A DNA stretch of 64,000 bases from Schaalia canis (GTDB lineage Bacteria; Actinomycetota; Actinomycetes; Actinomycetales; Actinomycetaceae). The position numbers were made by a program, and so were the translations under genes. Where the stretch lies: contig NZ_RQZF01000003.1 of assembly GCF_003858455.1 (NCBI RefSeq), positions 1 to 64,000 on the forward strand, in the 5' to 3' direction. Positions 33,145 through 55,015 of the stretch are shown here, piece after piece (positions within the stretch are counted from its first letter, which is position 1; each line of letters opens with the position of its first letter). The notes below the pieces were generated by a model. It did no database searches and had not been told where the DNA came from. It was given only the letters and a program-made list of their open reading frames with translations.

Positions 33145-33178
33145 TCGCGAGTGGTCGCTTCGAACTGACCACTCGCGA
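33145..33178. repeat. Palindromic element copy 2
   Basis: Outer arms TCGCGAGTGGTC are perfect, but the inner arms differ (CGCTT left, AACTG right), so the centre does not pair. It lies between the galE start and the purE stop. Confidence 0.95.
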
Positions 33179-33282
33179 TAAATACTCAGGGGACGGCAAG
33201 GAAACATTCAGCTAAGAGGGCCCCGCAGGCCCGCCCTCTCCCTCAGAAAAAGAACACGCAAGGCGCGACACAAAGGCGTCTC

Positions 33283-33840
33283 TCAGGAGGAAAGCTGTGC
33301 CGCGAGCGCTGCTCTCTTGTCCATCGCCGCCTGGCGCAGCTCGCTTTGGAAGGCGCGCATCTTTTCGCGTAGCTTCTCGGCGGCCTCGCCCTCGCCGGCT
33401 GCGAGGATACGCGCGGCCAGCAGACCCGCATTGCGCGCGCCCCCGACCGATACCGTCGCTACGGGCACTCCGGCGGGCATCTGCACAATGGAAAGCAGCG
33501 AATCCATGCCGTCGAGGTATTTCAGCGGGACAGGCACACCAATCACCGGCAGTTCGGTGAGCGAAGCGAGCATGCCGGGCAGGTGGGCGGCGCCGCCAGC
33601 GCCGGCGATGATGACGCGTAGCCCGCGGGCTGCGGCCTCGCGGCCGTAGGCGACCATGTCTTCAGGCATCCGGTGGGCGGAAATGACGCCAATCTCTGCG
33701 TCAATGCCGAATTCGGCGAGGGCTTCGGCGGCAGCTTTCATGGTGGGCCAGTCAGAATCTGACCCCATGACGATGCCGACCAGTGGCTGTGAGCCAGTCG
33801 CTGTGAGTTCAGGTTCAACAAAGCTGGGGCTGGTGGTCAT
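33283..33840 (-). CDS. purE: N5-carboxyaminoimidazole ribonucleotide mutase
   Basis: PurE converts N5-CAIR to CAIR in purine synthesis. The 185-residue protein has [29 protein letters not shown] (catalytic His), [17 protein letters not shown] and [22 protein letters not shown], all diagnostic. ATG 33840 follows AGGAG at five bases; an upstream in-frame ATG at 33864 would place that site inside the gene. purK lies just upstream on the same strand, the usual pairing. Confidence 0.96.
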
Positions 33841-33955
33841 CGTTTCTCCTATTGGGACGGCCAAAGGGGGGGTTGGCGGGTTTAGAAGAGGTCATATCCA
33901 GTGTGATGCTTGGTGGAATGCGCTGCTGGATGAAGCGCGCATGGTCCAGGGGCGG

Positions 33956-35122
33956 TTAGGGCCTTTCCTGTACCCCTGCGAGGGCGTCAAGCGCCGAGTG
34001 GGCGGTTGTACGCGACCACTCGAGGGAATCAGAGCAGACGGTGACGTGGCCGAGCTTGCGGCCGGGGCGCACTTCCTTGCCGTACAGGTGGATCTTCGCT
34101 GCGGGAGCGGCTTGCATGGCTGCGGCAAGGCCACAGGAGGGGTCTTCGTGGGCGCTGCCTAAGAGGTTGACCATGACGGCCACGGGAGTTCGCATGGCGG
34201 TGTCCCCTAGTGGCAGGTCGAGGACGGCTCGCAGGTGCTGCTCGAATTGGCTGGTGACAGCTCCGTCAATGGTCCAGTGTCCGGAGTTGTGGGGGCGCAT
34301 AGCGAGCTCATTGACGAGCAGGCGTGGTTGCCCATCCTCGCCGGGAGCGACGAACATTTCAACGGCGAGAACGCCGGTAACGTCAAGCTTGCGAGCGATA
34401 GTGGCGGCGATGTCTTGAGCCTGCTGAGCCAGTTCTTCGGTGAGGTTAGGAGCTGGGGCTGTCACGACGGCACAGACGCCGTCTTTCTGTTCGGTTTGTG
34501 CGACGGGCCATGAGCGAACCTCACCGGAGGGGCGTCGGGCAAGGAGTGCTGCGACCTCGCCGGTGAAGGGGACGCGGGCTTCCGCAAGAAGCGGGCCGCC
34601 AACGGCAAGCCAGTCATTGGCGCCGGTGGCGTCATTGACGAGGCGCACGCCGCGCCCGTCGTAGCCGCCGCGCGGGGTTTTCACGATGATGGGCCAGCCG
34701 TGAGTCTCACCGAAGGCGTGGAGATCTTCGGGGGTGTCGATGCGGGCCCATGCGGGGCATGGGATGTCGAGCTCGGTCAGTCGGGCGCGCATAGCGAGTT
34801 TGTCTTGAGCGTAAAGGAGGGCGTCCCGATGGGGATGGATGGGGAGTTGTTCGGCGCAGGCGTCAAAAGTTTCGCCTGGGATGTGTTCGTGTTCGAAGGT
34901 GAGGACGTCGGCTTCTGCGATGATCTGGGCGAGTGTGTTGATGTCGGTGGGGGCGCCTGCGGGGGCATTGACGATGACTTGTCCAGCTGATCCATTCGTT
35001 GCTTCAACGAGTGCGCGCAATTCAATGCCGAGGGCGATCGCGCTTTCTTGCATCATGCGGGCAAGTTGGCCGCCTCCGATGACGGCGACAACAGGGCGGG
35101 GGCTGGGTTTTGCGGCATCCAC
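33956..35122 (-). CDS. purK: N5-carboxyaminoimidazole ribonucleotide synthase
   Basis: PurK carboxylates AIR with ATP and bicarbonate. The 388-residue ATP-grasp enzyme has VVAVIGGGQLARMMQESAI, LTFEHEHIP, AQDKLAMRARL, IVKTPRGGYDGRGVRLV and VNELAMRPHNSGHWTIDG (metal-binding Glu and Asn). Length is usual. It precedes purE in the transcript, with about 115 bases between stop and purE start. Confidence 0.96.
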   Translation of the reverse strand: MDAAKPSPRPVVAVIGGGQLARMMQESAIALGIELRALVEATNGSAGQVIVNAPAGAPTDINTLAQIIAEADVLTFEHEHIPGETFDACAEQLPIHPHRDALLYAQDKLAMRARLTELDIPCPAWARIDTPEDLHAFGETHGWPIIVKTPRGGYDGRGVRLVNDATGANDWLAVGGPLLAEARVPFTGEVAALLARRPSGEVRSWPVAQTEQKDGVCAVVTAPAPNLTEELAQQAQDIAATIARKLDVTGVLAVEMFVAPGEDGQPRLLVNELAMRPHNSGHWTIDGAVTSQFEQHLRAVLDLPLGDTAMRTPVAVMVNLLGSAHEDPSCGLAAAMQAAPAAKIHLYGKEVRPGRKLGHVTVCSDSLEWSRTTAHSALDALAGVQERP

Positions 35123-35458
35123 CCTTTAAACCTAGCTGCAGCGCGCATGCTCACGCACGCATGTTCACCGAGTGGAAACCGGGCGGAAGGGCGAAACGCA
35201 CTTTGAGGCGCCAGCATGCCTACGCTGCTGCTTCCTTCCGTCTCCCCTGCGGCCGCGCCCAAACCCAAGCCCACAAAATTTGTCTGACACGCGAGTGGTC
35301 AGTTCAAACTGACCACTCGCGAAAAATACTCAGGGAACGTACAGCTGACGGTGAAGAAATGGCCTCTCAGAACTATGAGATGAAGTCCCAATCATCGAAG
35401 GGCAAGCTGGTGTCAGAATCCACCTCTGCTGCGCAGGAGAGTTGCCCCTACGCTCTGT
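35123..35458. other. Gap between purK and histidine kinase
   Basis: No supported gene. It holds the promoter side of purK and one palindromic element (35290-35321). A short + strand frame starting at 35359 runs antisense into the kinase end and is not convincing. Confidence 0.6.
35290..35321. repeat. Palindromic element copy 3
   Basis: A near-perfect copy of the AG variant: CGCGAGTGGTCAGTT, centre CA, then AACTGACCACTCGCG. It lies between the purK start and the kinase stop. Confidence 0.95.
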
Positions 35459-36784
35459 TTAGAAACGGCGACTGCGCCGCCCCGTGGAAACGAGTGGGCC
35501 CTCAGGCATCACTCGATCGGGACGCAACGATGCTGGAATCGCCGCAAGGGAGATCGTAAAGATCGGCGGTGAGTTCTGCGCGAGCTCCAGGCGCCCACCC
35601 ATTCCAGAGGTGAGGTCGCGCGCAAGGGCTAAGCCAATACCGCTGGAGCCGTGCCCCGATACCCCATACTCAAATAGTTCAGCCACCAGATTTTCAGCAA
35701 CGCCTTCACCCTCGTCAGAGACGTCGATCATCACGCCCCGCTTGTTGGCACTTCGGCGCGCCACCACACGGGTTGTACCGGCGCCGTATCGCAGGGAGTT
35801 TTCTATAAGGGTTGCCAGGACCTGCCCCAGCTTGGGAGCGTCAGCGAGGACGGGAAGATCGGCCTCGTCGGTGAAGATTAATTCGCGTCCAGCGCGTTCG
35901 AAAGCCTCCTCCCATTCTTCACGTTGAGCGTTCAGAATCTCAATAATGTGGATGGCTTCGGTGTTACCGCCCGTGCGCGCTGACGCATCCAAAAGCTCAG
36001 TAACAACGGTAGTGAGACGCTCAACCTGTTCAAGACAACTAGCTGCTTCGGTGCGCACTTCCTCTTCTGAGCTGATCATTTCGATCTCTTCAAGCCGCAT
36101 CGACAGTGCCGTCAACGGCGTGCGCAATTGATGGGAGGCGTCGGCAGCAAATTGGCGTTCGGCAGCAAGCCTGCCAGCCATACGTTCAGCTGTTCGAGCG
36201 AGCTCTTCTTGAACAAGGTCAATCTCTTCAATGCCGCAGGGTTTGACGCGCGCGCGTACCTGCCCTGAGCCGATCTGCTCGGCCTGAGCGGCCAGGTAGA
36301 TGAGTGGGGCGGACAGGCGTCGCGCCAAGCGTGAAGCCATCAGCCATCCCACGCCAAGAGAAGTCGCCATACCGCCAAGGAACATTCCAAAGACCATCAG
36401 TACCTTACTGATGGACTTTTGCGCCGAAACCTCCATATGAACGGCGGTCCCACTTGCCGAGGAGGTAAATGCAATGAGTTTTCGGCCAGTTACTTCACTT
36501 CCCACGGCGTAGACCCGCCCGCCGGGGATAGAAACGCGGGCGTGTGCCTCGGCTTGGTTTTTAGAAAACGGCGTTGCCCATGCGTCAATCAGGCTGATGG
36601 GTACGTCAGTGGAGTTTTGGAGGCGGCGATCAACGGCGCGTAGGAGGGATTCTGCGCGTGCTTCGAGTGCGGCTTGATCGTTGTGCCATACGACGATCGA
36701 GGCAGCGATTGCGCCGGGCACACCCAGAAGGAGCGCAACGACTGTGACGGTCGTGAGGATCATGTGGACGGCGCGTTTACGCAC
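35459..36784 (-). CDS. Two-component sensor histidine kinase
   Basis: The 441-residue membrane kinase has a first segment (MILTTVTVVALLLGVPGAIAASIVV), an extracellular loop of ~100 residues, a second segment (VFGMFLGGMATSLGVGWLM) and a HAMP-like linker. Then follow the H-box FAADASHQLRTPLTAL, N-box LATLIENSLRYGAG, and G-boxes DVSDEGEGVAENL and GSSGIGLALARDL. GTG 36784 has GGAGGTGA upstream, which decides the start. Its partner regulator lies upstream, separated by ~260 bases and a hairpin. The stimulus is unknown. Confidence 0.92.
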   Translation of the reverse strand: MRKRAVHMILTTVTVVALLLGVPGAIAASIVVWHNDQAALEARAESLLRAVDRRLQNSTDVPISLIDAWATPFSKNQAEAHARVSIPGGRVYAVGSEVTGRKLIAFTSSASGTAVHMEVSAQKSISKVLMVFGMFLGGMATSLGVGWLMASRLARRLSAPLIYLAAQAEQIGSGQVRARVKPCGIEEIDLVQEELARTAERMAGRLAAERQFAADASHQLRTPLTALSMRLEEIEMISSEEEVRTEAASCLEQVERLTTVVTELLDASARTGGNTEAIHIIEILNAQREEWEEAFERAGRELIFTDEADLPVLADAPKLGQVLATLIENSLRYGAGTTRVVARRSANKRGVMIDVSDEGEGVAENLVAELFEYGVSGHGSSGIGLALARDLTSGMGGRLELAQNSPPIFTISLAAIPASLRPDRVMPEGPLVSTGRRSRRF

Positions 36785-36956
36785 GTTGGTCACCTCCGAT
36801 AGTGGGGCGAGGCCATTGCCGGCCAAGATTAGCAGTCAGCAAAGAGCGCAAGAGCGAGGGATGGTTTCTCTGCATGCTTGCCACCAGTGGTGCGCGCGAC
36901 GCTCTGGGAAGGTGGGGGTGATTCCCAACGTGTGGCGGGCATCGTTGCTGACGAGA

Positions 36957-36994
36957 ATCCCCCGGTTGGAGGCGCAGTGCCTCTGCCGGGGGAT
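36957..36994. terminator. Strong hairpin between response regulator and kinase
   Basis: ATCCCCCGG pairs with CCGGGGGAT, with an inner GAGGC/GCCTC stem. It lies ~50 bases after the regulator stop and ~170 bases before the kinase start on the minus strand. It may attenuate kinase transcription. There is no T run. Confidence 0.55.
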
Positions 36995-37044
36995 GTCTCA
37001 GGTGCGGATACATCGCGTGGAGTGGTTGTCGTTGCTGGTATCCG

Positions 37045-37725
37045 TTAGTTGCTGGTGTTCTCGAAACGGAAGCCCATGCCTCGCACGGTGGTGATGTAGC
37101 GAGGGTCAGCGGCGTCGTCGCCAAGCTTTCTGCGTAGCCAGGACACATGCATGTCGAGGGTTTTGGTGGATCCGGTTGGGTCGGATCCCCATACTTCACG
37201 CATGAGGGCATCACGTTCGACGACGGAGCCTGCTTCACGGACGAGGACGCGCAGGAGGTCGAATTCCTTTGCTGTCAGTTGAAGTTCGCGTTCCTTGACG
37301 AAGGCGCGGTGGGCTGCGACCTCGACGCGCACGTCCTGAGCGATGAGGTCACCGTCGGAGTGGTCGGATCCGGTGCGACGAAGGAGGGCGCGAACGCGGG
37401 CGAGGAGTTCGGCCAGGCGGAAAGGCTTGGTGACGTAGTCGTCGGCGCCTGCGTCGAGGCCAACGACCATGTCGACCTCGTCGGTTCGCGCGGTGAGGAT
37501 GAGGATTGGAACGCTTCGTCCGGAGGATCTGATTTCCCTGGCAACGTCGAGGCCGTCGATGTCTGGAAGGCCAAGATCGAGAACGACGAGGTCGCAGCCG
37601 TCGACTTCAGCGAGGGCGCCGCGCCCGGTTCCGTGGGCGCGCACTTCGTAGCCTTCTCGGCCGAGGGCGCGAGCAAGGGGTTCAGAGATTGCGGGGTCAT
37701 CTTCGACGAGGAGAACTGTAGTCAC
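37045..37725 (-). CDS. OmpR/PhoB-family response regulator
   Basis: The 226-residue DNA-binding regulator has a receiver domain starting VTTVLLVEDDPAISEPLARAL, with the phospho-acceptor aspartate in CDLVVLDLGLPDIDG and the conserved lysine in DDYVTKPF. A winged-helix domain follows (LQLTAKEFDLLRVLVREAG, KTLDMHVSWLRRKLGDD, ITTVRGMGFRFE). GTG 37725 gives the normal N-terminus. The open frame extends upstream through palindrome copy 4, which is non-coding here. It pairs with the downstream kinase. Confidence 0.93.
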   Translation of the reverse strand: MTTVLLVEDDPAISEPLARALGREGYEVRAHGTGRGALAEVDGCDLVVLDLGLPDIDGLDVAREIRSSGRSVPILILTARTDEVDMVVGLDAGADDYVTKPFRLAELLARVRALLRRTGSDHSDGDLIAQDVRVEVAAHRAFVKERELQLTAKEFDLLRVLVREAGSVVERDALMREVWGSDPTGSTKTLDMHVSWLRRKLGDDAADPRYITTVRGMGFRFENTSN

Positions 37726-37830
37726 GCCACGATCATACCCTAATGAGATATTTTCTTGCACAGTTGTTGACCAAGTAAAGACTATTTCAACTCTCGCATT
37801 ACTTTTCCTGTGGCAGCGCCCCTGCATCAT

Positions 37831-37872
37831 TTCTCCGCGAGTGGTCGCTTCGAAGCGACCACTCGCGGAGAA
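37831..37872. repeat. Palindromic element copy 4 (42-base perfect palindrome)
   Basis: It is a perfect inverted repeat. Beyond the shared core the flanks TTCT/AGAA are also complementary. It lies ~105 bases upstream of the response regulator start and downstream of the cyclase stop. Confidence 0.96.
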
Positions 37873-38016
37873 CACTCAGGCATGAAGCAGCGAACGCACA
37901 GGAAAACCCATGAGCACACACGCCAAGAAGGCTCGCCACAATCGGCGAGCCTCCACAACACTCACGCCACCCTTAACGTCCCCCTTCCACAAGAGGAAGA
38001 CCGGGCGGCAACCTCG

Positions 38017-39069
38017 TCAATCAAAACGACGCGACACCAAATACGGCAACACCGTACCAACCCCACGCAACTCAGCGGGTGGGAACTCATCAACCATGTA
38101 CCCCGCTCCCCCTTTACCTGCCCCAATAGCGGCAGCGGTAGACGCATCCGTCAAAATCTTCCCCTCCGGCGCAATCCCCACCAAACGAGCTGCAAGGTTC
38201 ACCGTCGGACCAAACACATCGCCCGAACGAGAAAACACATCGCCCCGCACGAAAGAGGCGCGCACGGGCAAGATTTCATCATCAGCCTGCAAGCGGTCAA
38301 TCAGCGAAGTCACCACTTCCAGCCCAGTCTCCAGATCATCAGCAATAAACAAGACCGCATCGCCAATCATCTTCACCACGCGCCCGCCCGCTTCTGTCAC
38401 AGCGAAACGGCACGCATCTTCGAACCGTCCAATCAGATCAGGCAGTCGCCCACCCAGGATCGTCGACGTGGACGTGTAGGAAACCATGTCAACAAACCCC
38501 AGCGAGCGCGTGAGGGGAAAACGCTTCTTCGCATCCACATGACCACGCCGGGAAACCTCATTAAATGTGCGAGTAAGCAGAGCCTCAAGCTGACGCTGCC
38601 AGGCATGTGTGAAAGCCTCTTGCAGGATTTCCACGCGTTCACGCATATGGTCAAGGACATAGATGCGCGCGGTCGTATCATCCAAACCATGGCGGCGCAT
38701 TGCATCCTCCACCAGAGCCTCCACCTGCCACAATCCCAGCCGGTCAGCAAGGTGCGAGTGCGCGCGCAAAAGGGAGCGCGAGGTGGCCTCGTCAATATCA
38801 CCCGATTCCACCAGAGCGCTCCAGCGCTGGTAGGCATCTAAATCACGGACGGTGAAAGCCTTTTCGTCAGGTGCGACGGTACGAAAACCCATGGCGGACC
38901 AAAAATCATTGACCATCTGGACAGTGGTGGAGGTGCGCGCAGCCAGGTCCTGTGCACTTAAGTTCACAGGGCCCCCAAGCAAACAATCCTCGTAGTCGCT
39001 GATCGTGCTGGGCATCTGGGGATGCTCATTCGAGGAAACCAGAGTCAGATGTGTGTCCGTCATCACCAT
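38017..39069 (-). CDS. Class III adenylate cyclase, Rv1264-like
   Basis: The enzyme makes cAMP. The ~350-residue protein has an N-terminal regulatory part of about 170 residues (GPVNLSAQDLAARTSTTVQMV, DLDAYQRWSALVESG, MRERVEILQEAFTHAWQRQLE) like the autoinhibitory domain of mycobacterial Rv1264. The catalytic domain has SLGFVDMVSYTSTS (first metal Asp), VVKMIGDAVLFIADD (second metal Asp) and FGPTVNLAARLVGIAPEG. ATG 39069 or 39063 could start it. Gene is divergent from maf, with palindrome copy 5 between. Confidence 0.88.
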   Translation of the reverse strand: MVMTDTHLTLVSSNEHPQMPSTISDYEDCLLGGPVNLSAQDLAARTSTTVQMVNDFWSAMGFRTVAPDEKAFTVRDLDAYQRWSALVESGDIDEATSRSLLRAHSHLADRLGLWQVEALVEDAMRRHGLDDTTARIYVLDHMRERVEILQEAFTHAWQRQLEALLTRTFNEVSRRGHVDAKKRFPLTRSLGFVDMVSYTSTSTILGGRLPDLIGRFEDACRFAVTEAGGRVVKMIGDAVLFIADDLETGLEVVTSLIDRLQADDEILPVRASFVRGDVFSRSGDVFGPTVNLAARLVGIAPEGKILTDASTAAAIGAGKGGAGYMVDEFPPAELRGVGTVLPYLVSRRFD

Positions 39070-39130
39070 TAGAGTGTAGTCACGCGGGCGCCAAAATGCG
39101 ATCCCAACCCCGCCCCAAGCCACTTCACAC

Positions 39131-39164
39131 TCGCGAGTGGTCGCATCAAACTGACCACTCGCGA
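39131..39164. repeat. Palindromic element copy 5
   Basis: Outer arms TCGCGAGTGGTC are perfect, with a mixed inner part (CGCAT left, AACTG right). It lies in the divergent cyclase-maf region, ~30 bases before maf. Confidence 0.95.
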
Positions 39165-39196
39165 ACTCTGCATCTCAAATCAGCGACAATAAGACC

Positions 39197-39910: not shown

Positions 39911-39942
39911 CCCAGCCACGCTGCTACCCCACTTCTCCTTAG

Positions 39943-39972
39943 GCGAGTGGTCGCTTCTATGCGACCACTCGC
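39943..39972. repeat. Palindromic element copy 6
   Basis: Arms GCGAGTGGTCGC and GCGACCACTCGC surround TTCTAT. It lies 32 bases after the maf stop. Confidence 0.95.
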
Positions 39973-40118
39973 AGTCACAGGGGTGCACGAACTGCACACC
40001 CTGACCTCCCTCGCCTCCTATCCTTCCCCTCATCTACTCTGAGAATCTTCACCCGGTGGCATCTTCACTAGGTGGACTGAGCGCGCATCCTTTCGCCCGC
40101 CACCATAAAGTAAAGAAC

Positions 40119-41102: not shown

Positions 41103-41107
41103 GCGCT

Positions 41108-41212: not shown

Positions 41213-41248
41213 TCCGCGAGTGGTCGCTTCGAAGCGACCACTCGCGGA
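41213..41248. repeat. Palindromic element copy 7
   Basis: A 36-base perfect palindrome (TCCGCGAGTGGTCGCTTC and its complement) between the convergent dapD and gltA genes. Confidence 0.96.
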
Positions 41249-42961: not shown

Positions 42962-44173
42962 TCAGGCGCGAAAATAGTCCGCACCTAGTTCCATGATTCG
43001 GGCAGAAGCCGCATCAATACGCTCATCCGTGGCAGTCAGGGCGATACGCACATGATCGCGGGCCGCATCACCGTAGAAGGCACCCGGGGCGACAAGGATT
43101 CCAGCCTTCGCAAACAGGTCCACAAGAGCCCACGAATCCCCTTCAACTTCTTCCTCATTTTCGCGAGTGGTCGGTTCGAAGCGACCACTCGCGGAAAAAA
43201 CTGCACCATCGACGCTAGGACGCCTCACCCACAGGTACAAGCCCGCCGCGGACACCTCGTCAATCAGCAAGCCCGCCGACAGTACAGCCTCTTTCAAAAC
43301 CTCACGGCGGCGCGCGTACAAACGGTACTGCTCGGCCACTTGGGCCTCGTCCCGCAATGCCACTGCCATCGCGTGCTGCACGGGCGCGGGCACCATCATT
43401 CCCGCATGCTTGCGGACCTCAACAACCGCGCTAATCAAAGCCGGATCTCCATACATCAACGCCGCGCGGTAGCCCGCCAGATTGGACTGCTTCGACAAGG
43501 AATACAAAACGATGATGCCGCTTGGGTCCTCGCCGCACACGCGCCGATCCAGCACGGACGGCACGCCCCCGGTCACATACGGCTCCTCCCAAGGTAAAGC
43601 CGCGTAGCACTCATCCGAGACAATAACCGCCTTATGAGCGCGCGCCCACTCCACAGCGGCTACGAGTTCGTCAATGGTGAGCACATGCCCGTCAGGGTTA
43701 CCCGGCGAGTTCAAGTACACGAGGCTTGCGTCGGGCCACGTGCCGGGACGTGTGGGGTCAACCGGGATGGGGGTGGCACCAGCCAAGCGCGCCCCCACAT
43801 CGTAGGTTGGGTAGGCGACGTGGGGGACGAGGACGCTCTGGCCGGGTTGGACTCCCAGGAGAAGCGGCAGCCATGCGACGGCTTCTTTAGAGCCGATTGT
43901 GGGGATCACACCTTTGTCGCCAACGTCAACCATGTTGCGGCGGGCACCCCACGCACGGATAGCGTCGCGCACTTCCTGCGTTCCAACGACTGTTGGGTAG
44001 CCGGGAGCGTCGGAGGCATCTTTGAGGGCTTCTTGAATGAGCGCAGGCGTTGGGTCAACGGGGGTGCCAACCGAAAGGTCGCAGATACCATCTGGATGCG
44101 CGCTCGCCTGAGCTTTAGCGGGCGCGAGTTTATCCCAGGGAAAGTCAGGCAGGCCAAGAGTGGTGGGGAGCAT
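42962..44173 (-). CDS. dapC: Succinyldiaminopimelate transaminase with in-frame palindrome insertion
   Basis: DapC is a PLP aminotransferase of lysine/DAP synthesis. The 403-residue protein has LPDFPWDKLAPAKAQA at the start, VYLNSPGNPDGHVLT, IVSDECYAALPWEE, and the PLP lysine in LYSLSKQSNLAGYRAAL. Between VDGAV and EGDSWALVDLFAKAGILVAPG sits FSASGRFEPTTRENEEEV, encoded by palindromic element copy 8 and its flank. This is likely a surface loop near the small domain, so activity may be retained. Neighbouring fdxA is a usual actinobacterial partner. Confidence 0.9.
   Translation of the reverse strand: MLPTTLGLPDFPWDKLAPAKAQASAHPDGICDLSVGTPVDPTPALIQEALKDASDAPGYPTVVGTQEVRDAIRAWGARRNMVDVGDKGVIPTIGSKEAVAWLPLLLGVQPGQSVLVPHVAYPTYDVGARLAGATPIPVDPTRPGTWPDASLVYLNSPGNPDGHVLTIDELVAAVEWARAHKAVIVSDECYAALPWEEPYVTGGVPSVLDRRVCGEDPSGIIVLYSLSKQSNLAGYRAALMYGDPALISAVVEVRKHAGMMVPAPVQHAMAVALRDEAQVAEQYRLYARRREVLKEAVLSAGLLIDEVSAAGLYLWVRRPSVDGAVFSASGRFEPTTRENEEEVEGDSWALVDLFAKAGILVAPGAFYGDAARDHVRIALTATDERIDAASARIMELGADYFRA
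43162..43193. repeat. Palindromic element copy 8, inside dapC
   Basis: Outer arms CGCGAGTGGTC / GACCACTCGCG are perfect with one inner mismatch (GGTT versus AAGC). It is in frame with dapC on the minus strand and encodes SASGRFEPTTRE. Confidence 0.96.
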
Positions 44174-44320: not shown

Positions 44321-44352
44321 TCGAGTGGTCGCTTCTATGCGACCACTCGCGA
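44321..44352. repeat. Palindromic element copy 9
   Basis: GAGTGGTCGC and GCGACCACTC surround TTCTAT. The outer left arm is degenerate (TCGAG instead of GCGAG). It lies between the dapC start and the fdxA stop. Confidence 0.93.
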
Positions 44353-45267: not shown

Positions 45268-45307
45268 TTTCCGCGAGTGGTCAGTTCTAACTGGCCACTC
45301 GCGGAAA
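45268..45307. repeat. Palindromic element copy 10
   Basis: A 40-base inverted repeat: TTTCCGCGAGTGG and its complement outside, TCAGTT..AACTGG inside with one mismatch, centre CT. It lies between the convergent 44837 gene and typA. Confidence 0.95.
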
Positions 45308-47292: not shown

Positions 47293-47328
47293 TCCGCGAG
47301 TGGTCAGTTCTATGTGACCACTCGCGGA
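47293..47328. repeat. Palindromic element copy 11
   Basis: TCCGCGAGTGGTCA outside with an imperfect centre (GTTCTATG). It lies 25 bases upstream of typA, so it may be in the typA promoter or leader. Confidence 0.95.
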
Positions 47329-47566: not shown

Positions 47567-48835
47567 TTACGCCTTCGAATGGGAAGCCCCCTCCCTTCTT
47601 CTGCCTCGCCAGAGAATCCACCCCACTTCGTCTGCGCGACTCCACGCATTCCGCACACGGTTCGTCCTCGTCAAACGCCATTTCTCCCTCAAACCCACGC
47701 GAAAACGACGGCCTGTTCGCACCCGTAACGCATCAGCCACAGCACGCTCAAAAACAGGCTCGATTCCCGCCATGTCGTCAGCCCGCACCACAATCGCCTG
47801 CCACCCAACCTCGGCAAGCTCCACTAAACGCTGCTCATCCGACTCGGCTTTCACTCCGCTCGCAGGATGATAGGCCTGGCCGTAATACTCCACAGCTACT
47901 CCACCATCACCACACACCCACCCCAGATCCATCCGAAATTTACGACCACACCCACGCTTCACCTCGATCTGCGTCTTCGGTTCAGGAAGGCCCGCTTCCT
48001 TCAGACGAAGACGAACAGCAGTTTCCTGAGCAGACTCCGAGGACGGGTCAGCCTCTTGAACTGCTCGACGCAGAATCTTCACCCCGCGTCGACCTCGTCG
48101 CTCCCGGATCGCCGACCACAGCTCCTGGACCGTCACCAGATGCTTGCGCAAAAAGTCTTCGACCACCGCCGTCGCACGATCAATTCGTTCCGACATCACA
48201 ATGTCACACAACGTACGAAGCGGTGAGGTGATACGGATCCCCGGGCCAGCCTCGACTACTTCCTCATCCTCAAGCATCATCGAACGGCACCGTTCGCCGG
48301 GCCGCCGAAGAGCACGCTGCCCACGCGGGCGCAACATACACAGACGAAAGGAGTCATCAGGGCGTTTGTGGCTTCGCGTATCAATGCCGTAGAAGAGGGC
48401 CGCTGTCTCTCCAGCGAAAATGACGTCTTTGGGGAGGACCTTTTGGAGTTCCCACAAAAACTCGATGCCTGAGAGAGGTTCTGTTGCATACCAGCCTCGC
48501 GCAATCTGGATGAGTTTTCCTGAACGAACTTTGCGTCGAATGCTCGCGGAGGTTTCGCCTTGGGCGATGAGATCGGCGCGGTAGAAAATCCGCCTACCCT
48601 GGAGGGTTTCGTTTGCTATTACTGGCTCTGCTTGAATATTGGTGCCGTTCTCTGCGTGCTGTTCGTTTGACGAGGCCGACGCCGCTGACACGGAGGGCGC
48701 TGCGGTTTCGGTTCTGTGGGGATGAGAGAGGAATTCTTCGAGGCTACGCGAGTGTAGTGTCAGCACGGGGCTTGACGGAGCGCTTGCACGTTGGCTTTTG
48801 AATGCTGAGAGCGTGATGTTAAGTGGAGAGTTCAT
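47567..48835 (-). CDS. AbiEi-like winged-helix / DUF559-type nuclease-fold protein
   Basis: The 422-residue protein has a Ser/Ala-rich N-terminus, then FYRADLIAQGETSASIRRKVRSGKLIQIARGWYATE. That resembles the AbiEi-type N-terminal DNA-binding domain found in many actinobacterial proteins. The C-terminal part (QIEVKRGCGRKFRMDLGWVCGDGGVAVEYYGQAYHP... RLVELAEVGWQAIVVRADDM) has the DLGW-x-VAVEY and late basic pattern of DUF559/PD-(D/E)xK nuclease folds. Such proteins are common and mostly uncharacterised. No toxin partner gene is adjacent. The protein ends in a very basic tail. Confidence 0.7.
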   Translation of the reverse strand: MNSPLNITLSAFKSQRASAPSSPVLTLHSRSLEEFLSHPHRTETAAPSVSAASASSNEQHAENGTNIQAEPVIANETLQGRRIFYRADLIAQGETSASIRRKVRSGKLIQIARGWYATEPLSGIEFLWELQKVLPKDVIFAGETAALFYGIDTRSHKRPDDSFRLCMLRPRGQRALRRPGERCRSMMLEDEEVVEAGPGIRITSPLRTLCDIVMSERIDRATAVVEDFLRKHLVTVQELWSAIRERRGRRGVKILRRAVQEADPSSESAQETAVRLRLKEAGLPEPKTQIEVKRGCGRKFRMDLGWVCGDGGVAVEYYGQAYHPASGVKAESDEQRLVELAEVGWQAIVVRADDMAGIEPVFERAVADALRVRTGRRFRVGLREKWRLTRTNRVRNAWSRADEVGWILWRGRRREGASHSKA

Positions 48836-48961
48836 AGTCTCAGTTTCGCCACCTGTCGAGCCAGAGAAAAAGGAAAGCTGGGGCGTTGTGGATAGACCCT
48901 TTTGTCATGAAAGCCTGTGGATAAGTTCGTTCCTCGCCAAGGTCTTGGCAGTACTTGCGCT

Positions 48962-49001
48962 TTTTCGCGAGTGGTCAGTTCTATGCGACCACTCGCGAAA
49001 A
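48962..49001. repeat. Palindromic element copy 12
   Basis: TTTTCGCGAGTGGTC and its complement outside; the inner part is mixed (AGTT left, GCG right, centre TCTAT). It lies between divergent genes 47567-48835 and the mutarotase. Confidence 0.95.
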
Positions 49002-49073
49002 GGAACAGGCACAGTCCCTTAAAACTCACCTTAAGTTGTATGTCTTTGTCTGTGGAGGCATTATCCTCACCTT

Positions 49074-49982
49074 ATGTCCCACTCATCCATCCAGAGTGTT
49101 CAAACACCAGACTCCACCCTTGTTGTCCGCGATTTCGGCGCACAAGTTCTTTCCTGGCGGCCACGCGCGTCAGAAGAAGTCCTGTGGGTATCTCCACTTG
49201 CGACAATCACTAGGGCTTCTCCTCTTCGGGGCGGCATTCCTGTGTGCTTTCCGTGGTTTGACAATGCCTCTCGCTCTTCTGCAGTCGAGGCGACACAGGC
49301 CCCCACACATGGATTTGCGCGAAATACCCTGTGGGAACGCAAGAAGAGCACAGAAGGCGACTCGCTCTGTTTCAGTCTCACCCACGCTCCCTTCGCGAGT
49401 GGTCAGCTAGAAGCGACCACTCGCGAACTAGCGGAGGCAGAATATTGGGACCTCTACCCGCATTCTTTCGACGCTGACCTCTCCGTCCGGACTCGTGAGA
49501 CGCTTGAGATCACTCTGACAGTCACGAACACCGACAATCATTCATACGTCTTTGAAGCTGCATTCCACACGTACTTTCGCGTCTCAGATATACGAAATAT
49601 CAACTTGAAAGGTCTTGAAGGAGCCTGCTATATCGATGCTTTGAACGGCTTCACTGCGGGGGTAGGCGATTCCCTTGACACTTTCAGCGAGGCAGTTGAC
49701 CGCGTGTACACAAGCAAGTCTCCGGTGACAATTTCTGACCCTGGCTTGTCTCGAGAGATTCATATCGCGACCGAGGGTTTTGGGAGTTGGATCGTGTGGA
49801 CGCCGTGGAGCGAAGGGGCTCTCAGCATCGAAGATATCCCCGACGAGGCTTGGGCCGACTTTTTATGCCTTGAAGCTGGCAACGTTTTGGGAGACGCACA
49901 GCAGATTTACCCTGGCGAAACACTCGAGATGACTATGCGAGTAAGCGTCTCTGACCTGACCTCATTCCCACCCCAGAGTTAA
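49074..49982 (+). CDS. D-hexose-6-phosphate mutarotase with in-frame palindrome insertion
   Basis: The 302-residue galactose-mutarotase-fold protein interconverts anomers of a hexose-6-phosphate (YeaD type). Visible motifs are DFGAQVLSWRPR, WVSPLATITRASPLRGGIPVCFPWF, HGFARNTLW (catalytic His), EAAFHTYFRVSDI and the late glutamate in CLEAGNV. After SLTHAP the sequence FASGQLEATTRELAEAEYW appears where the family has a short turn; it is encoded by palindromic element copy 13. The stop codon lies inside a further copy (14). ATG 49074 is the first plausible start. Confidence 0.85.
   Translation: MSHSSIQSVQTPDSTLVVRDFGAQVLSWRPRASEEVLWVSPLATITRASPLRGGIPVCFPWFDNASRSSAVEATQAPTHGFARNTLWERKKSTEGDSLCFSLTHAPFASGQLEATTRELAEAEYWDLYPHSFDADLSVRTRETLEITLTVTNTDNHSYVFEAAFHTYFRVSDIRNINLKGLEGACYIDALNGFTAGVGDSLDTFSEAVDRVYTSKSPVTISDPGLSREIHIATEGFGSWIVWTPWSEGALSIEDIPDEAWADFLCLEAGNVLGDAQQIYPGETLEMTMRVSVSDLTSFPPQS
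49392..49427. repeat. Palindromic element copy 13, inside the mutarotase gene
   Basis: TTCGCGAGTGGTC and its complement outside, with a mixed centre (AGCTAGAAGC). It is in frame on the + strand and encodes FASGQLEATTRE. Confidence 0.96.
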
Positions 49983-50030
49983 TAATTCGCGAGTGGTCGC
50001 TTCGAAGCGACCACTCGCGAATTATTAAAA
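49979..50030. repeat. Palindromic element copy 14 (52-base perfect palindrome over a stop codon)
   Basis: The longest copy: perfect over 52 bases, including flanks TTAATAATT and AATTATTAA. The TAA stop of the mutarotase (49980-49982) lies in the left flank. It sits between convergent genes and may also terminate transcription. Confidence 0.97.
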
Positions 50031-50060
50031 ATCAGCAAGCATGTCATGCAGACGGGAACA

Positions 50061-50579
50061 CTACTCTTCGCGAAGAAGCTCTGGCTCCCCGTCTGTGTCA
50101 GCGTCGGTGAAGAGAATCTCTGTAATCTGAACGTGGACTCTTTCGACGTGTGGAACGTCGTGGAGGACAAGAGGTTCTTCGGCAGCCGTTTCGAGGACGA
50201 GGGTGCCGCAACCAAGAAGCCGGTCAAGAAGATCGCGCTCATATTGGACGTTATTTACTCGACGAAGGGGAAGATCGTGTCCCTTGCGGTTGATAACTCC
50301 AGCCCGAGTGATGATGCGACGGTTTGTAATGGTGTAGGTCTGCATACGCCATGTAATGATCGGCCACACCACCCACAGGAGCATCAAAAGCGCCCAAATA
50401 ATAGCGGCGGCGATAAGTCCGTAAGGATGCCAGCTTTCAGGTTCGACGTAGTATGCGCCCCCCAATGCTGCCGTCAGAACAACTCCAAGCAGGATCTGAC
50501 CGAATACTGCTTTCATATGGGTGCGTAAATGGAGGACGACGTATTCGCCTGTACCCAGGTGGCTTTGCGGGATGCCCAT
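50061..50579 (-). CDS. Membrane protein with bacterial PH domain
   Basis: The 172-residue protein has a short N-terminus (EYVVLHLRTHMKAVFGQ), two hydrophobic segments (ILLGVVLTAALGGAYYV and LIAAAIIWALLMLLWVVW) and a bPH2 domain (ITWRMQTYTITNRRIITRAGVI, DLPLRRVNNVQYERDLLDRLLGCGTLVLETA). The pattern is that of the YdbS/YdbT-type PH-domain membrane proteins. ATG 50579 follows GGAGG. A 20-residue acidic tail ends it. Function in the family is poorly defined. Confidence 0.88.
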   Translation of the reverse strand: MGIPQSHLGTGEYVVLHLRTHMKAVFGQILLGVVLTAALGGAYYVEPESWHPYGLIAAAIIWALLMLLWVVWPIITWRMQTYTITNRRIITRAGVINRKGHDLPLRRVNNVQYERDLLDRLLGCGTLVLETAAEEPLVLHDVPHVERVHVQITEILFTDADTDGEPELLREE

Positions 50580-50659
50580 TTTTCCTCCGGTGGACTGAAG
50601 CGACTTCCTTGTAGCATAGCCGCCTCTTCACTCCCGTTGGGTCTTCATCACCCACAGAG

Positions 50660-50699
50660 ATTCCGCGAGTGGTCGCTTCGAAGCGACCACTCGCGGAAT
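50660..50699. repeat. Palindromic element copy 15
   Basis: A 40-base perfect palindrome beginning ATTCCGCGAGTGGTCGCTTC. It lies ~80 bases upstream of the PH-domain gene and 32 bases after the GNAT stop. Confidence 0.96.
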
Positions 50700-50730
50700 A
50701 GAACGGAAAAGACCGACCAGACAGGAACCC

Positions 50731-51243
50731 TCACGCTTCGTCGTCGCCAGCGGCTTCCCACAGCATCACGCCGTCTTTCTCACGCCCCACAACCGCCACA
50801 AACCCCTCACTCTCGTAAAGCGTGCGAGCGAAATTGCCTTCCTCCACCGATAAGCTCACGCGCAACACACCCCGCGCGAGTGCCTCGTCTTTCACAGCGC
50901 GCAAAAGAGCCCGCCCTAATCCTCGCCCACGGTAGCCCTCACGAACCCACAGCCCTAACTCCGGCGTCGCCTCGTCAATAAACCCATACCCCGCCTGAGC
51001 GACGCTGAAATACTGAACCCAAACCGCGCCAACGGCTTCTCCCTCCCATGCTGAATCATCGACGTGTGCGGCAAAACCGAAATCGCCACGCGAGCTGACA
51101 AGAGAGGCATAGCGGGCAAACTCGGGCATTTCATTCACGTCGGCAGCAGTAAAGCGCGGACCACACCAGTTGATATTTCCAAGAACCGCTTCAGCAAGAA
51201 GATCCTTGTCACCATCGACAAGTGGACGAAAAACAGCGTTCAT
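50731..51243 (-). CDS. GNAT-family N-acetyltransferase
   Basis: The 170-residue acetyl-CoA-dependent enzyme has FRPLVDGDKDLLAEAVL at the start, the strand VGAVWVQYF, and the acetyl-CoA loop LGLWVREGYRGRGLGRALLRAV (Q/R-x-x-G-x-G/A type), then LSVEEGNFARTLYESEGFV. Its substrate cannot be read. ATG 51243 gives a natural start and has AGGG upstream; the frame is open to 51309. Confidence 0.88.
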   Translation of the reverse strand: MNAVFRPLVDGDKDLLAEAVLGNINWCGPRFTAADVNEMPEFARYASLVSSRGDFGFAAHVDDSAWEGEAVGAVWVQYFSVAQAGYGFIDEATPELGLWVREGYRGRGLGRALLRAVKDEALARGVLRVSLSVEEGNFARTLYESEGFVAVVGREKDGVMLWEAAGDDEA

Positions 51244-51522
51244 GGGCTTCACCCTAACAGTTACCGTCCCCCAATTAAGAGGGGAGGGAAGAGAAGGCGA
51301 CGGCGGCACTTTCTTTATCAGCAGCGCAGCAAAAACCAGGAGACAGCGTTAGACTTTCCCGTGAAGTGATGCATGACCAGCATGAACATCACCTCTCGCA
51401 CCCCATCACATCACGCAGGCCTCTCTTAGGAGAAATGCCGGCCACCATCTTCACACAGCGCATCCCTGCCTCGATCGCCCCTTGCTAACACCCTGTACCC
51501 GGATCCAGGAAAGGACACACGC

Positions 51523-53067
51523 ATGACATTTCGCTCTCTCGTAGCGGGCGCAGGCAGCGCAGCGCTTTGCCTGAGCCTGCTACCCGCCGGCGCCGCCCTC
51601 GCTGCCGACCCCTCAGCGGGTCCCCACACCGACGCGATTACCGTCGCTACTTTTAATGCCAGCCTTAACCGATCCCGCGAGGGCGAGCTCCTTGAACACC
51701 TCGCCACTGGCGACAATGTGCAGGCGCAAAACGCCGCGGAAACCATCCAGCGTATTAACCCTGACATCATCCTCATCAATGAGTTTGATTACGACGCTGA
51801 GCACAAAGCAGCCGACCTCTTCCGCAAAAACTACCTTGAGGTGGGGCACAACGGTGCTGCGCCTGTCACCTACCCCTACATGTGGACCGGGCCGGTCAAC
51901 ACGGGCGTCCCGTCGGGTTTCGATCTTGATAACGACGGACAGATTAAGCCCGGCAATGATGCGTGGGGCTTTGGCCTGTTCCCCGGGCAGTACGGCATGG
52001 TGGTGTACTCGAAGTTCCCCATCAAGGCCGAGCAGGTGCGCACCTTCCAGAATTTCTTGTGGAAGGACATGCCCGGCGCGGTGCTGCCAGTGAACGCCGA
52101 CGGCACCCCCTGGTATTCGCCAGAGGAGTTGGCGAGCTTCCCGCTCTCATCTAAGACGCACGCTGATATTCCTGTTGATGTCAACGGCACGATCGTGCAC
52201 GTGCTGGCTGCCCACCCCACTCCTCCGGCTTTTGACGGGCCTGAGATGCGTAATCAGAAGCGCAATCATGATGAGATCCGCATGTGGGCGGACTACATTT
52301 CGGGCGCAGGCACCTACTTGTACGACGATAAGGGAGGAACAGGCACGCTGGCGCCAGATGCGAATTTTGTCATTCTGGGCGACTACAACGCTGACCCGGC
52401 CGACGGTAGCTCCTACCAGAACGCCATTATGCAGCTACTCGGGAACGACCGCGTCCTCGATACTCTGCCCACTTCTGAGGGTGGCCCTCAAGAGCACGCT
52501 TTGCAGGGTGAAGCGAATACCACCCATGCGGGTGACCCAAAGTACGACACTGCTGATTTCAGTGACGGTCGCACAGGTAACCTGCGGGTTGATTACGTGC
52601 TGCCCAACCGTGGGGCTGTGGTCGAGGAAGCGCGCGTGTTCTGGCCAACTCGTGAGGATGAGCTTTTCCGCCTGACCGGCCTGGATAAGAATCCTCAGAC
52701 GGGTGAGCGTCAGCCCTTCCCAACCTCGGACCACCGCGCGGTGTGGGTGCGGATGACCTTCCCCGCGAGCGCCGACCAGACGGCACCTCCGACCCAGCCT
52801 GTGCCGCCTGTTACTCCCCCAAAGCAGCCGACGCCTCCCGCTCAGCCGACCCCGCCGACCACGGTTGTGCCGCCAAAGGCAGATGGTCCTGCGTCCTCGA
52901 AGACTCCTTCCACACCGAAGGGCACCGCTAAGCAAGCCCCTTCCAAGAAGACCTCTGAGAAGTTGGCAGCGACGGGCGCGTCTGGCCTGACCTGGGTGCT
53001 TGTGGGAGGTGGCGCGCTGGTGATTGTGGGCGCGTTGCTGGTGTTTCTGAAGCGACGCGGCCAGTAG
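51523..53067 (+). CDS. Secreted endonuclease/exonuclease/phosphatase-fold protein with LAATG sorting signal
   Basis: The 514-residue protein has a signal peptide (FRSLVAGAGSAALCLSLLPAGAALA) and an EEP-fold domain: ITVATFNASLNRSREGEL, ILINEFDYDAEHKAADLF, VLAAHPTPPAFDGPE, NFVILGDYNADPADGS and the catalytic SDHRAVWVRM. A Pro/Thr/Lys-rich wall spacer (about 415-470) leads to LAATG, a membrane segment (WVLVGGGALVIVGALLVFL) and KRRGQ. That is a cell-wall sorting signal of the LAXTG kind used by class E sortases. It may be a surface nuclease or phosphodiesterase; substrate unknown. AAAGGA precedes the ATG. Confidence 0.9.
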   Translation: MTFRSLVAGAGSAALCLSLLPAGAALAADPSAGPHTDAITVATFNASLNRSREGELLEHLATGDNVQAQNAAETIQRINPDIILINEFDYDAEHKAADLFRKNYLEVGHNGAAPVTYPYMWTGPVNTGVPSGFDLDNDGQIKPGNDAWGFGLFPGQYGMVVYSKFPIKAEQVRTFQNFLWKDMPGAVLPVNADGTPWYSPEELASFPLSSKTHADIPVDVNGTIVHVLAAHPTPPAFDGPEMRNQKRNHDEIRMWADYISGAGTYLYDDKGGTGTLAPDANFVILGDYNADPADGSSYQNAIMQLLGNDRVLDTLPTSEGGPQEHALQGEANTTHAGDPKYDTADFSDGRTGNLRVDYVLPNRGAVVEEARVFWPTREDELFRLTGLDKNPQTGERQPFPTSDHRAVWVRMTFPASADQTAPPTQPVPPVTPPKQPTPPAQPTPPTTVVPPKADGPASSKTPSTPKGTAKQAPSKKTSEKLAATGASGLTWVLVGGGALVIVGALLVFLKRRGQ

Positions 53068-53148
53068 GTGACATTTTACGTCTGACGAGGCTGGAGCCGC
53101 CGCTTAGTGTGGCGGGGAGAGAACGTTTGACGTATGAAGCCTGTCAAG

Positions 53149-53185
53149 GGTGGTGGGGCTGGACAATCCGGCCCCACCACCTTTT
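53149..53185 (+). terminator. Terminator of the surface nuclease gene
   Basis: GGTGGTGGGGC (53149-53159) pairs perfectly with GCCCCACCACC (53171-53181), followed by TTTT. Confidence 0.88.
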
Positions 53186-53334
53186 GTCTGCGTTGGTGTG
53201 TCTGGCGGGGAACGAGCGTGGGCGTTTCCGTAGTCACAGGTAAATCGGGGAGGGAGCCAGCGCTAGAGTTGGGAAGGTGGGGCTTCCCTTCCTACATATC
53301 CCGGTCTTTCTCCTGAGGATTTTCGCTAAGGGTT

Positions 53335-53372
53335 TTCCGCGAGTGGTCGGTTAGAAGCGACCACTCGCGGAA
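53335..53372. repeat. Palindromic element copy 16
   Basis: TTCCGCGAGTGGTC and its complement outside, inner mismatch (GGTTAGAAGC). It ends eight bases before the stop of the deaminase-like frame. Confidence 0.95.
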
Positions 53373-53379
53373 TAGGAGG

Positions 53380-53834
53380 TCAGTTCTCAGTAGTGACCGC
53401 AGTATTCACGCGGTATGCCCCCGGGATGAGGTCGGTGGCGAGGACACTCACCTCCCCATCCGAACCGGGCAGGATGACACGCAGGTGGGGATAGTAGTCA
53501 ATGAAAACTTGTCGGTCCCCCCCCCGCACGGTGCGCATACTCCTCGTCCGTGGTTACCGACGGCCACAATGTGCGTGATCTCGAAGGCGCAGGCCGCGCG
53601 CGCAGATCCGAGTGCAACCAGCTCGGCACAGGGGCCGCCGGTGAAGTGGTAGAGGTTCACGCCGGTGAAGATTCGTCCGTCAGCACTGCGAACAGCGGCA
53701 CCCATGGTGTGAATGCCATCCTCGTTGAGGTGTGCGGTGTCGGTGGCGGCGTCAATCGTCTGTCGTGCGCTTTCGATAAGGGCTTTTTCTTCCTCGTTCA
53801 CGGGTCGCGCCGATGGGTACAGGGTTTCGGTCAT
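53380..53834 (-). pseudogene. Cytidine/blasticidin deaminase-like gene, frameshifted at a nine-base G run
   Basis: From ATG 53834 the frame reads TETLYPSARPVNEEEKALIE, MGAAVRSADGRIFTGVNLYHFTGGPCAELVALGSA (zinc His/Cys-A-E region) and VCAPCG, then leaves the family pattern. At the G9 run (C run on the + strand, 53517-53525) a change of frame restores DRQVFIDYYPHLRVILPGSD and continues to a stop at 53380 with a good family C-terminus. A run of seven G would give PCGGDRQ. In the unshifted frame translation continues to 53448. It may be a sequencing error, a true mutation or a phase-variable switch. Confidence 0.8.
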
Positions 53835-54017
53835 GGTGTGGCGCTCCTTCTTTGTTTCCAGCGCTTCGAGCAATGGCCAGTTCCGTGGCCAGATTTGGGA
53901 TTGGTGCCAGACTCTGGATCAAGTTCTGGCGCACGTCCAGGGGTCGAGTCTACCTGCGAGGTTCGGCAGCGGGATAAAAGAGGGGGCTGTCATCATCGGC
54001 GAGTCTGTGACCTCCTC

Positions 54018-54059
54018 ATTTTCGCGAGTGGTCAGTTCTAAGTGACCACTCGCGAAAAT
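54018..54059. repeat. Palindromic element copy 17
   Basis: ATTTTCGCGAGTGGTCA and its complement outside (42 bases) with an imperfect centre (GTTCTAAG). It lies between the deaminase-like start and the ion-channel stop. Confidence 0.95.
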
Positions 54060-54069
54060 AGGGCGGGGA

Positions 54070-54909
54070 TCAGTCCAAATCCTTTAGACGCAGGATCTCA
54101 TCTCGGAGCCGCTCGATGTCCCTCCGCAAGGCTTCAACATCAGCCTTGGTCGCCGCGCATTCTCCGGTGCAACCCGCAGCTTGTCGCCCACGCTCGCCCT
54201 CCCCCTGAGGATCGGCGGCGGGCGCCTCGTCCATCATTCCTCCGTCAGCTCCCTCAAGAGCAGATTCCTCGTCGCTTGCCTGTGCCACCACCCACGAGGC
54301 CAACGTTGCCGTCACAATGCCGATGAGCGAGATCCCGGCAAGCATCAAGATGACAGCAACCATGCGCCCCTCATCAGTAACCGGGGCGATATCGCCGTAG
54401 CCAACAGTTGTGACGGTAACGAATGCCCACCACAGAGCCTCACTCATAGTCGTCAGGGACGAGCCCTCCACACCCCGCTCAAGATCGAGGACAGTCAGCG
54501 CTGACAGCCAGACGAGGAGGGCCGATCCAACTGTCGTGTAGGCCGCGATCCTCCCATGCAAGTGGAGGTTCGCACTGCGTTGAATCACGCCGAGGATCAT
54601 GAGGACGCGCAAAACTCTCAGGGGACGAAGAATAGGAAGGATAACAACGACGAAGTCGAATAGATGCCGTGTAAACCAAGTGCGACGGTCGTGGGCGAGG
54701 TAAAGGCGCACAAGATACTCCACGAGAAAGAACACCCAGATGGCCATGAGGATGACCTCACTGATCTGGAGTGCACGCCCTGTGGGTTGGCTAATGATTT
54801 GCCAGGAGTAGATGACAAGGTAGGCCAGGGCAGCAAGAGTGAGAATCCACTCCATGAGAAGGAAGTACTTCGGGGTGTGGTGTTCTTTGAGCGCAGCATG
54901 ATTCAGCAC
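54070..54909 (-). CDS. Voltage-gated-type potassium channel protein
   Basis: The 279-residue channel subunit has six hydrophobic segments. S4 is basic (LPILRPLRVLRVLMIL), and the pore loop has the potassium selectivity filter TVTTVGYGD before the last segment (VAVILMLAGISLIGIVTATLASWVV). The cytoplasmic C-terminus has an acidic linker with two cysteines and a coiled coil (ATKADVEALRRDIERLRDEIL), which probably helps tetramer assembly. The gene is divergent from the maltokinase gene, with palindrome copy 18 between. Confidence 0.92.
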   Translation of the reverse strand: MLNHAALKEHHTPKYFLLMEWILTLAALAYLVIYSWQIISQPTGRALQISEVILMAIWVFFLVEYLVRLYLAHDRRTWFTRHLFDFVVVILPILRPLRVLRVLMILGVIQRSANLHLHGRIAAYTTVGSALLVWLSALTVLDLERGVEGSSLTTMSEALWWAFVTVTTVGYGDIAPVTDEGRMVAVILMLAGISLIGIVTATLASWVVAQASDEESALEGADGGMMDEAPAADPQGEGERGRQAAGCTGECAATKADVEALRRDIERLRDEILRLKDLD

Positions 54910-54981
54910 ATCGCCATGCTATCGGCTTTCCCCTCATATCCCCACGTTCCTCCCAGCTTCCCTTTCCTTTCTGAGAGTTCC

Positions 54982-55015
54982 CCGCGAGTGGTCAGTTAGA
55001 AGCGACCACTCGCGG
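54982..55015. repeat. Palindromic element copy 18
   Basis: CCGCGAGTGGTC and its complement outside, mixed centre (AGTTAGAAGC). It lies between the divergent channel and maltokinase genes and is the last copy seen in the window. Confidence 0.95.

Follow-up and report, generated by a model that had tools for sequence, protein, structure and literature searches.

The first 64,000 nucleotides of contig NZ_RQZF01000003.1 of Schaalia canis (here the window) contain part of a dense array of short palindromic sites, among which lies a gene (47567-48835) for a protein with an AbiEi-like region followed by a nuclease-like domain. Each site is a 28-bp dyad, CGAGTGGTC-N10-GACCACTCG, in which a degenerate 10-bp core is flanked by two 9-bp arms. 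Co-occurrence of the gene and the sites, synteny, joint absence, and lineage-specific site sequences strongly suggest a protein-site system, and we consider it very likely that this protein and the palindromes are a cognate pair. Sequence comparison also leads us to favor, with somewhat better than even confidence, a reading in which the palindromes would be double-stranded DNA-binding sites of the resident protein, together forming a local nucleoprotein domain. That the array helps to organize this chromosomal segment is a more tentative proposal, to which we give a little less than even weight.

Copy number and conservation of the dyads

In the S. canis genome (G000; 2.58 Mb in 76 contigs), we detected 40 dyads with up to two mismatches, 39 on the contig of the window (C13) and one on contig C35, compared with a mean of 0 for permuted arms. 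The main array consists of 37 dyads in C13:33148-92393 (~60 kb), running beyond the end of the window at a density of about one site per 1.6 kb, and outlying dyads occur at 19690, C13:130750, and C35:74419. With up to three mismatches, C13:1-155000 contained 40 full dyads, whereas permuted arms averaged 0.1 and never gave more than 1; single arms with up to one mismatch gave 40 matches, against an average of 6.3 and at most 14 over 100 dinucleotide shuffles. The original prediction had listed 18 copies in the window, all of which we located within about 10 bases of the starts that it gave, which had counted flanks. It had overlooked one copy (33995-34022), so that the window contains 19 copies, 18 of them within 33145-55015. 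Its proposal of common outer arms held for the two 9-bp arms, but the longer flanking palindrome varies from copy to copy, leaving a conserved dyad of 28 bp.

Among 35 genomes of the genus, arrays (up to two mismatches) were found in four: S. canis with 40 dyads, Schaalia sp. Marseille-Q2122 (G001) with 39, a complete genome (G002) with 22, and an Actinomyces metagenome-assembled genome (G033) with 27. The other 31 had 0 or 1. Scanning 213 family genomes at the same threshold revealed at least eight dyads in these four and in two genomes of another genus (G205 and G206), with 0 to 2 in the rest; the regions fetched from G205 and G206 contained 27 and 16 dyads, respectively, with the same spacing and different arms. 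G000 and G001 are ~80% identical at the DNA level in the array region, and 38 of the 40 G000 positions (up to three mismatches, including a degenerate site in mfd) had their own G001 counterpart. A 39th was also present in G001, as a copy with a 3-bp-shorter core. The isolated site at C35:74419 had its counterpart at G001:C7:190425; in G000, this dyad precedes the tmRNA gene by ~160 bp, and the tmRNA gene of G001 lies ~4.6 kb further on. Of the 40 G000 positions, 15 were matched in G002 by a site at the same place or within the equivalent gap, 8 fell in one unresolved interval, and 17 had no site; for G033, the numbers were 12, 8, and 20, respectively. The original prediction had held that mobility would be unlikely if every copy were at the same place in all related species. 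Positions are nearly all shared between G000 and G001, but only some of them recur in the more distant array species, and most relatives are site-less.

We compared regions from 13 of the 31 site-less genus members, some covered only in part. Neither site relics nor any other recurrent palindrome at an equivalent place was found in these 13 regions; a reversed-sequence control for the latter was uninformative because a reversed palindrome is still a palindrome. Neither a target-site duplication nor a clean empty site was seen among the compared sites, so that insertion is at most a possible origin for some copies. Beside the site at C13:77691, we observed by eye a half-decayed dyad (~77628) with one arm intact and the other degraded in both G000 and G001, which suggests site turnover. 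A degenerate dyad with three mismatches also occurs within the proposed cognate gene of G206 (C1:283668).

Two half-sites at a fixed spacing

We compared 37 of the 40 sites as orthologous G000/G001 pairs, omitting the degenerate mfd site, the short-core G001 site, and the site without its own orthologue. Dyad positions 6, 8, 9, and 11 to 13 never differed, versus flank positions 22 to 26, which were unchanged in just 8 to 12 of the 37 pairs. The site sequence is specific to lineage. Arms were CGAGTGGTC with differing cores (TTCGAA-like in G000 and G001, TGCA in G002, and GC-centered in G033), mostly CGAGTGGAC-type in G206, and CGACTGGTC in G205, with the 28-bp spacing constant throughout.

Complementarity between the two halves behaved differently. 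Flank positions 17 to 22 paired above shuffled expectation in G000 (z 4.9), G001 (3.7), and G206 (3.0), without clear excess in G002 (1.5), G033 (0.0), or G205 (0.5). Arm position 7 of G205 was complementary in only 8 of 27 sites, and core positions 1, 3, and 4 of pooled G000 and G001 sites paired less often than shuffled (z -3.8, -2.8, and -2.8). Since mispairing at position 7 is frequent in G205 and the flank excess is limited to some lineages, arm-to-arm base pairing is not what is conserved; the conserved property is a pair of half-sites at fixed spacing. Some copies in G000 and G206 have outer stems of up to 20 pairs, and G206:C1:266575 and 267895, with complementarity reaching far into the flanks, are possible newborn copies. 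The symmetry of the flanks may reflect the way in which new copies are generated.

The proposed cognate gene

The gene lies inside the array and adjoins typA in all six array genomes. In the 213 family genomes, these six gave the six top protein matches (306 to 698 bits; the next was 159), and genus genomes beyond the four array species reached at best 37 bits versus at least 211 within them. Homologues elsewhere in a sample of 396 genomes of the order scored 179 bits or less. The gene was not found in the 13 site-less regions, though typA was found in all of them; typA and galM were near-adjacent without the gene in 8 of these species and 9 kb apart in site-less G013, and 4 yielded no galM in the stretch fetched. 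G013, the other site-less Schaalia species, and four of six species of the second genus lack both gene and sites but retain neighbors such as typA.

In the species tree, G002 is basal in the genus, G033 groups with G013, and G000 and G001 stand beside the rest of the site-less species. For the protein, the tree is ((G205,G206),(G002,(G033,(G000,G001)))), with one node supported at only 0.76. The two trees are compatible and fit vertical inheritance with presumed joint losses, and the pair, if real, is apparently older than the split of the two genera. The protein is fast-evolving yet constrained, with a ratio of nonsynonymous to synonymous substitution rates (dN/dS) of 0.13 at dS near saturation.

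PADLOC AbiEi models matched the AbiEi-like region in all six members, and Pfam AbiEi_4 matched three of six, only below its cutoff. REase_MTES_1575 was matched by four of six, not including the window's own protein. A profile of the six members matched the Vsr structures 1VSR and 1ODG (E 0.0013) and the mobile-intron protein 3R3P (E 0.015), which we take to be a homing endonuclease. This weak similarity points to a putative Vsr-like (PD-(D/E)XK) nuclease fold in the C-terminal part. E267, E271, D303, E316, H323, and D333 are invariant in the six proteins, and all of these except E316 presumably form an EDxHD-type site. The ExDG aspartate has been lost in five of the six array proteins versus retention in nine of ten array-less homologues. 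AbiEi proteins bind 23-bp inverted repeats and autoregulate (PMC7319586), and the AbiEi-like N-terminal part probably gives the site specificity proposed here.

Other searches for partners or arrays gave little. A 578-residue protein encoded in a site-less block within the array was rejected as a partner, being present in 17 of 35 genus genomes, most of them without arrays. We saw no arrays near 16 of 17 weak same-genus matches, 10 distant family homologues, or 4 homologues from the order, in a search that carries little weight, since the repeated words that it turned up around the genes of G205 and G206 recurred only four and two times in 20 kb. A phage or plasmid origin was likewise rejected: the exact dyad occurred in 0 viral contigs, and the protein had no match among phage records and partial matches (30 to 34%) in two plasmid records.

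Genes around the sites and chromosomal position

The genes among the sites are core genes of diverse functions (Pfam matches; names inferred): purE, purK, a histidine kinase, a response regulator, maf, dapD, gltA, dapC, a ferredoxin, typA, and galM, and further ychF, ispH, uppS, msrA, ppx, ftsB, eno, mfd, pth, and galK. In a census of G000 gaps of at least 40 bp between hand-curated genes, with 66969-68709 omitted as ambiguous, 30 of 42 gaps carried a site (tandem, 19/27; divergent, 6/8; convergent, 5/7), and three more sites were intragenic. Sites within homology-supported coding sequences numbered 3 of 27 in G205, 6 of 16 in G206, 2 of 20 in G002, and 3 of 26 in G033. The coding sites in purK (G000 and G001) and in dapC of G206 came without an indel; those in dapC and galM of G000 and G001 lie in loops that are longer than in relatives and of variable length anyway.

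A mobile island was rejected, as the genes are core genes whose order is largely conserved in site-less species. The main array of G002 spans 1.64-1.71 Mb and dnaA is at 2.40 Mb, placing the array away from the origin, and ordinary parS sites are near dnaA, apart from the array, whose dyad is a different sequence; an origin or parS array was therefore rejected as well. The G002 array is 0.45-0.52 Mb from the point opposite dnaA, and a weak, sampled GC skew flips sign within 1.18-1.54 Mb, so that the array may lie on the terminus side.

One block within the array, 55080-62900, is site-less, encodes a DUF4143/AAA protein, a MerR regulator, a cytochrome-b5-like protein, and open reading frames without clear family, and is longer and rearranged in G001; it looks like a variable spot. 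An open reading frame of 375 codons at C13:76238-77365, with a dN/dS of 2.2 between G000 and G001, was set aside as probably a wrong reading frame.

Table 1. Dyads of the window, the proposed cognate gene, and two genes at the edge of the array
Feature	Position	Strand	Remarks
Dyad	19690..19717	.	Outlier left of main array; orthologue G001:C3:445413
Dyad	33148..33175	.	galE/purE gap
Dyad	33995..34022	.	One arm mismatch; in purK C-terminal coding sequence; no indel relative to relatives
Dyad	35292..35319	.	purK/histidine kinase gap
Dyad	37838..37865	.	Gap following response regulator gene
Dyad	39134..39161	.	Divergent gap ahead of maf
Dyad	39944..39971	.	maf/dapD gap
Dyad	41217..41244	.	Convergent dapD/gltA gap
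Dyad	43164..43191	.	In dapC; loop longer than in relatives
Dyad	44322..44349	.	dapC/ferredoxin gap
Dyad	45274..45301	.	One arm mismatch; ferredoxin/typA gap
Dyad	47297..47324	.	Gap between typA and proposed cognate gene
Proposed cognate protein, 422 aa	47567..48835	-	AbiEi-like 75-246; Vsr/REase_MTES_1575-like nuclease ~267-370 (limits inferred from alignment)
Dyad	48968..48995	.	~130 bp upstream of proposed cognate gene; divergent gap with galM
Dyad	49396..49423	.	In galM; loop longer than in relatives
Dyad	49990..50017	.	Gap following galM
Dyad	50666..50693	.	Convergent gap
Dyad	53340..53367	.	Convergent gap
Dyad	54025..54052	.	Tandem gap
Dyad	54985..55012	.	Divergent gap; own orthologue not found in G001 (rearranged block)
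galK	C13:87690-88976		No match in site-less G008; neighbors matched
BrkB-like gene	C13:89881-91422		No match in site-less G008; neighbors matched

Comparison with known systems

No known family that we considered agreed with the array and its protein in every feature compared. As in REP/RAYT systems, the palindromes are short and mostly intergenic with a fast-evolving gene among them, and the presence of gene and repeats correlates, as described for RAYTs (PMC2817692). However, the RAYT-type Y1 transposase domain (PF01797, IS200/IS605-like) was matched in none of the six array genomes, compared with 5 of 14 controls, and, by eye, no fixed GTAG/GTGG (or CGTC) tetramer stands beside the dyad, where positions beyond 16 mostly carry less than 1 bit. 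The 16 to 40 copies are also not scattered over the genome but almost all in one neighborhood (37/40 in ~60 kb in G000), at positions conserved between G000 and G001, and the dyad is symmetric. This agrees with the original prediction, which had not recognized the palindromes as a known REP, BOX, or ERIC family, as does an Rfam search of the window with nothing at the gathering threshold; no search was aimed specifically at BOX or ERIC.

The array resembles MatP/matS and ParB/parS, in each of which a protein that binds DNA has short palindromic sites within one region. The candidate protein differs in matching only AbiEi and nuclease models, no search directed at MatP or ParB having been made, and the array differs in its density and in the separate presence of canonical parS sites near dnaA. 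AbiEi antitoxins (type IV toxin-antitoxin systems, COG5340) share the N-terminal region and the known binding to inverted repeats (PMC7319586), but our candidate continues into a nuclease-like domain, its sites extend across tens of kb, and its neighbors are typA and galM (Pfam) instead of a DUF1814 AbiEii toxin partner. Vsr, REase_MTES_1575, and 3R3P resemble the C-terminal domain weakly (E 0.0013 to 0.015), and the many sites here contrast with a single target.

Alternative explanations

Spread of the palindromes in a REP/RAYT-like manner by an unrelated enzyme, with the Vsr-like nuclease nicking or cutting them and driving local copying near its own gene, would make the sites selfish or semi-domesticated. 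We consider this, the main rival, unlikely, though it accounts for several observations. The gene is embedded among palindromes, fast-evolving, and co-inherited with them, as is described for RAYTs (PMC2817692). E267, E271, D303, H323, and D333 are invariant, the dapC and galM sites of G000 and G001 are in lengthened loops, a site found only in G001 lies in an interval that exceeds its G000 equivalent by ~90 bp (judged by eye in a poor alignment), and the stems of up to 20 pairs in a few G000 and G206 copies look as if derived from inverted copying. Against such spread, 39 of 40 positions are common to G000 and G001 with nearly invariant arms, the sites are limited to one neighborhood save for a few outliers, some coding sites came without an indel, no target-site duplication or clean empty site was seen, and the ExDG aspartate is mostly lost precisely in the array proteins. 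The RAYT or HUH mobility raised by the original prediction fares no better, with Y1_Tnp absent from all six array genomes, and its helper elsewhere gives way to a likely partner inside the array.

That the protein regulates transcription of the genes across the 60-kb region, with the sites as its operators, seems quite improbable to us: a site in most gaps and one ~130 bp upstream of the gene itself, as expected from AbiEi autoregulation (PMC7319586), are opposed by sites in five of seven convergent gaps and in coding sequences and by the functional diversity of the array genes. Hairpins in RNA or DNA, acting as terminators, mRNA stabilizers, or cruciforms, are extremely improbable as the conserved function. 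The palindromes are near-perfect and flank pairing is in excess in three genomes, but pairing is not clearly raised in the other three, G205 position 7 and the G000/G001 cores pair poorly, six of eight divergent gaps carry sites, and the T-rich tendency before and A-rich tendency after the dyad in G000 and G001 are the reverse of an intrinsic terminator. It is also very improbable that the arrays serve another factor, with the nuclease-like gene a bystander linked to them by descent. Our profiling was limited to genes of the array region, which speaks for this account, but gene and sites are jointly absent from G013, the other site-less Schaalia species, and four of six second-genus species, where typA-like neighbors remain. 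Among the three options of the original prediction, protein-binding sites are the best fit.

Several points weigh against the proposed binding and domain formation. An organizer need not be encoded within its own array, and an AlphaFold single-sequence model was uninformative (mean pLDDT 35). Co-occurrence is not phylogenetically independent, because few gains or losses, not six, lie behind it. Motif distance tracks housekeeping divergence nearly as well as protein divergence (rho -0.64 and -0.69; 15 non-independent pairs), so that specific co-evolution is at most a candidate explanation. The absence profiling, which covered array-region genes, rarely reached edge genes in site-less regions, and in G008, the sole site-less region reaching their neighbors, galK and the BrkB-like gene were unmatched too. 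Finally, binding to double-stranded DNA leaves the extended complementary flanks of some copies unexplained.

A model for the array and its significance

In the model that we favor, a symmetric protein, presumably a dimer, would read the two 9-bp arms, one per half-site, across the 10-bp core, a reading to which the known binding of AbiEi proteins to inverted repeats contributes (PMC7319586). Together with its 16 to 40 sites per genome, the protein would build a local nucleoprotein domain that covers tens of kb of housekeeping genes, and the site at 48968..48995 could provide autoregulation. Gene and sites would be a unit that selection maintains in some lineages and that others lack as a whole, most likely with a role in organizing or handling this chromosomal segment by a logic like that of ParB/parS or MatP/matS. 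We regard it as an even prospect that this is an old Actinomycetaceae system whose protein, a fusion of a Vsr-type nuclease with an AbiEi-like module, marks or handles the segment at 16 to 40 sites, by binding or by programmed nicking.

We consider the system new because neither the protein type nor a local, dense, conserved array matches a system known to us or found in our literature searches. Searching the open-license literature at the abstract level, we found no description of such a palindrome array with its protein, and no paper on DUF559 with AbiEi was found in that literature. Its novelty would be lower if it proved to be an organizer of the MatP type. Should the pair prove real, this nuclease-like protein has retained an array of sites of its own across a segment of housekeeping genes, while the site sequence changed in concert at 16 to 40 places. 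If true, this would be a new way of marking a chromosomal region, a natural test case for concerted evolution of a protein and its many sites, and a first lead on the many uncharacterized AbiEi-plus-nuclease proteins across the order.

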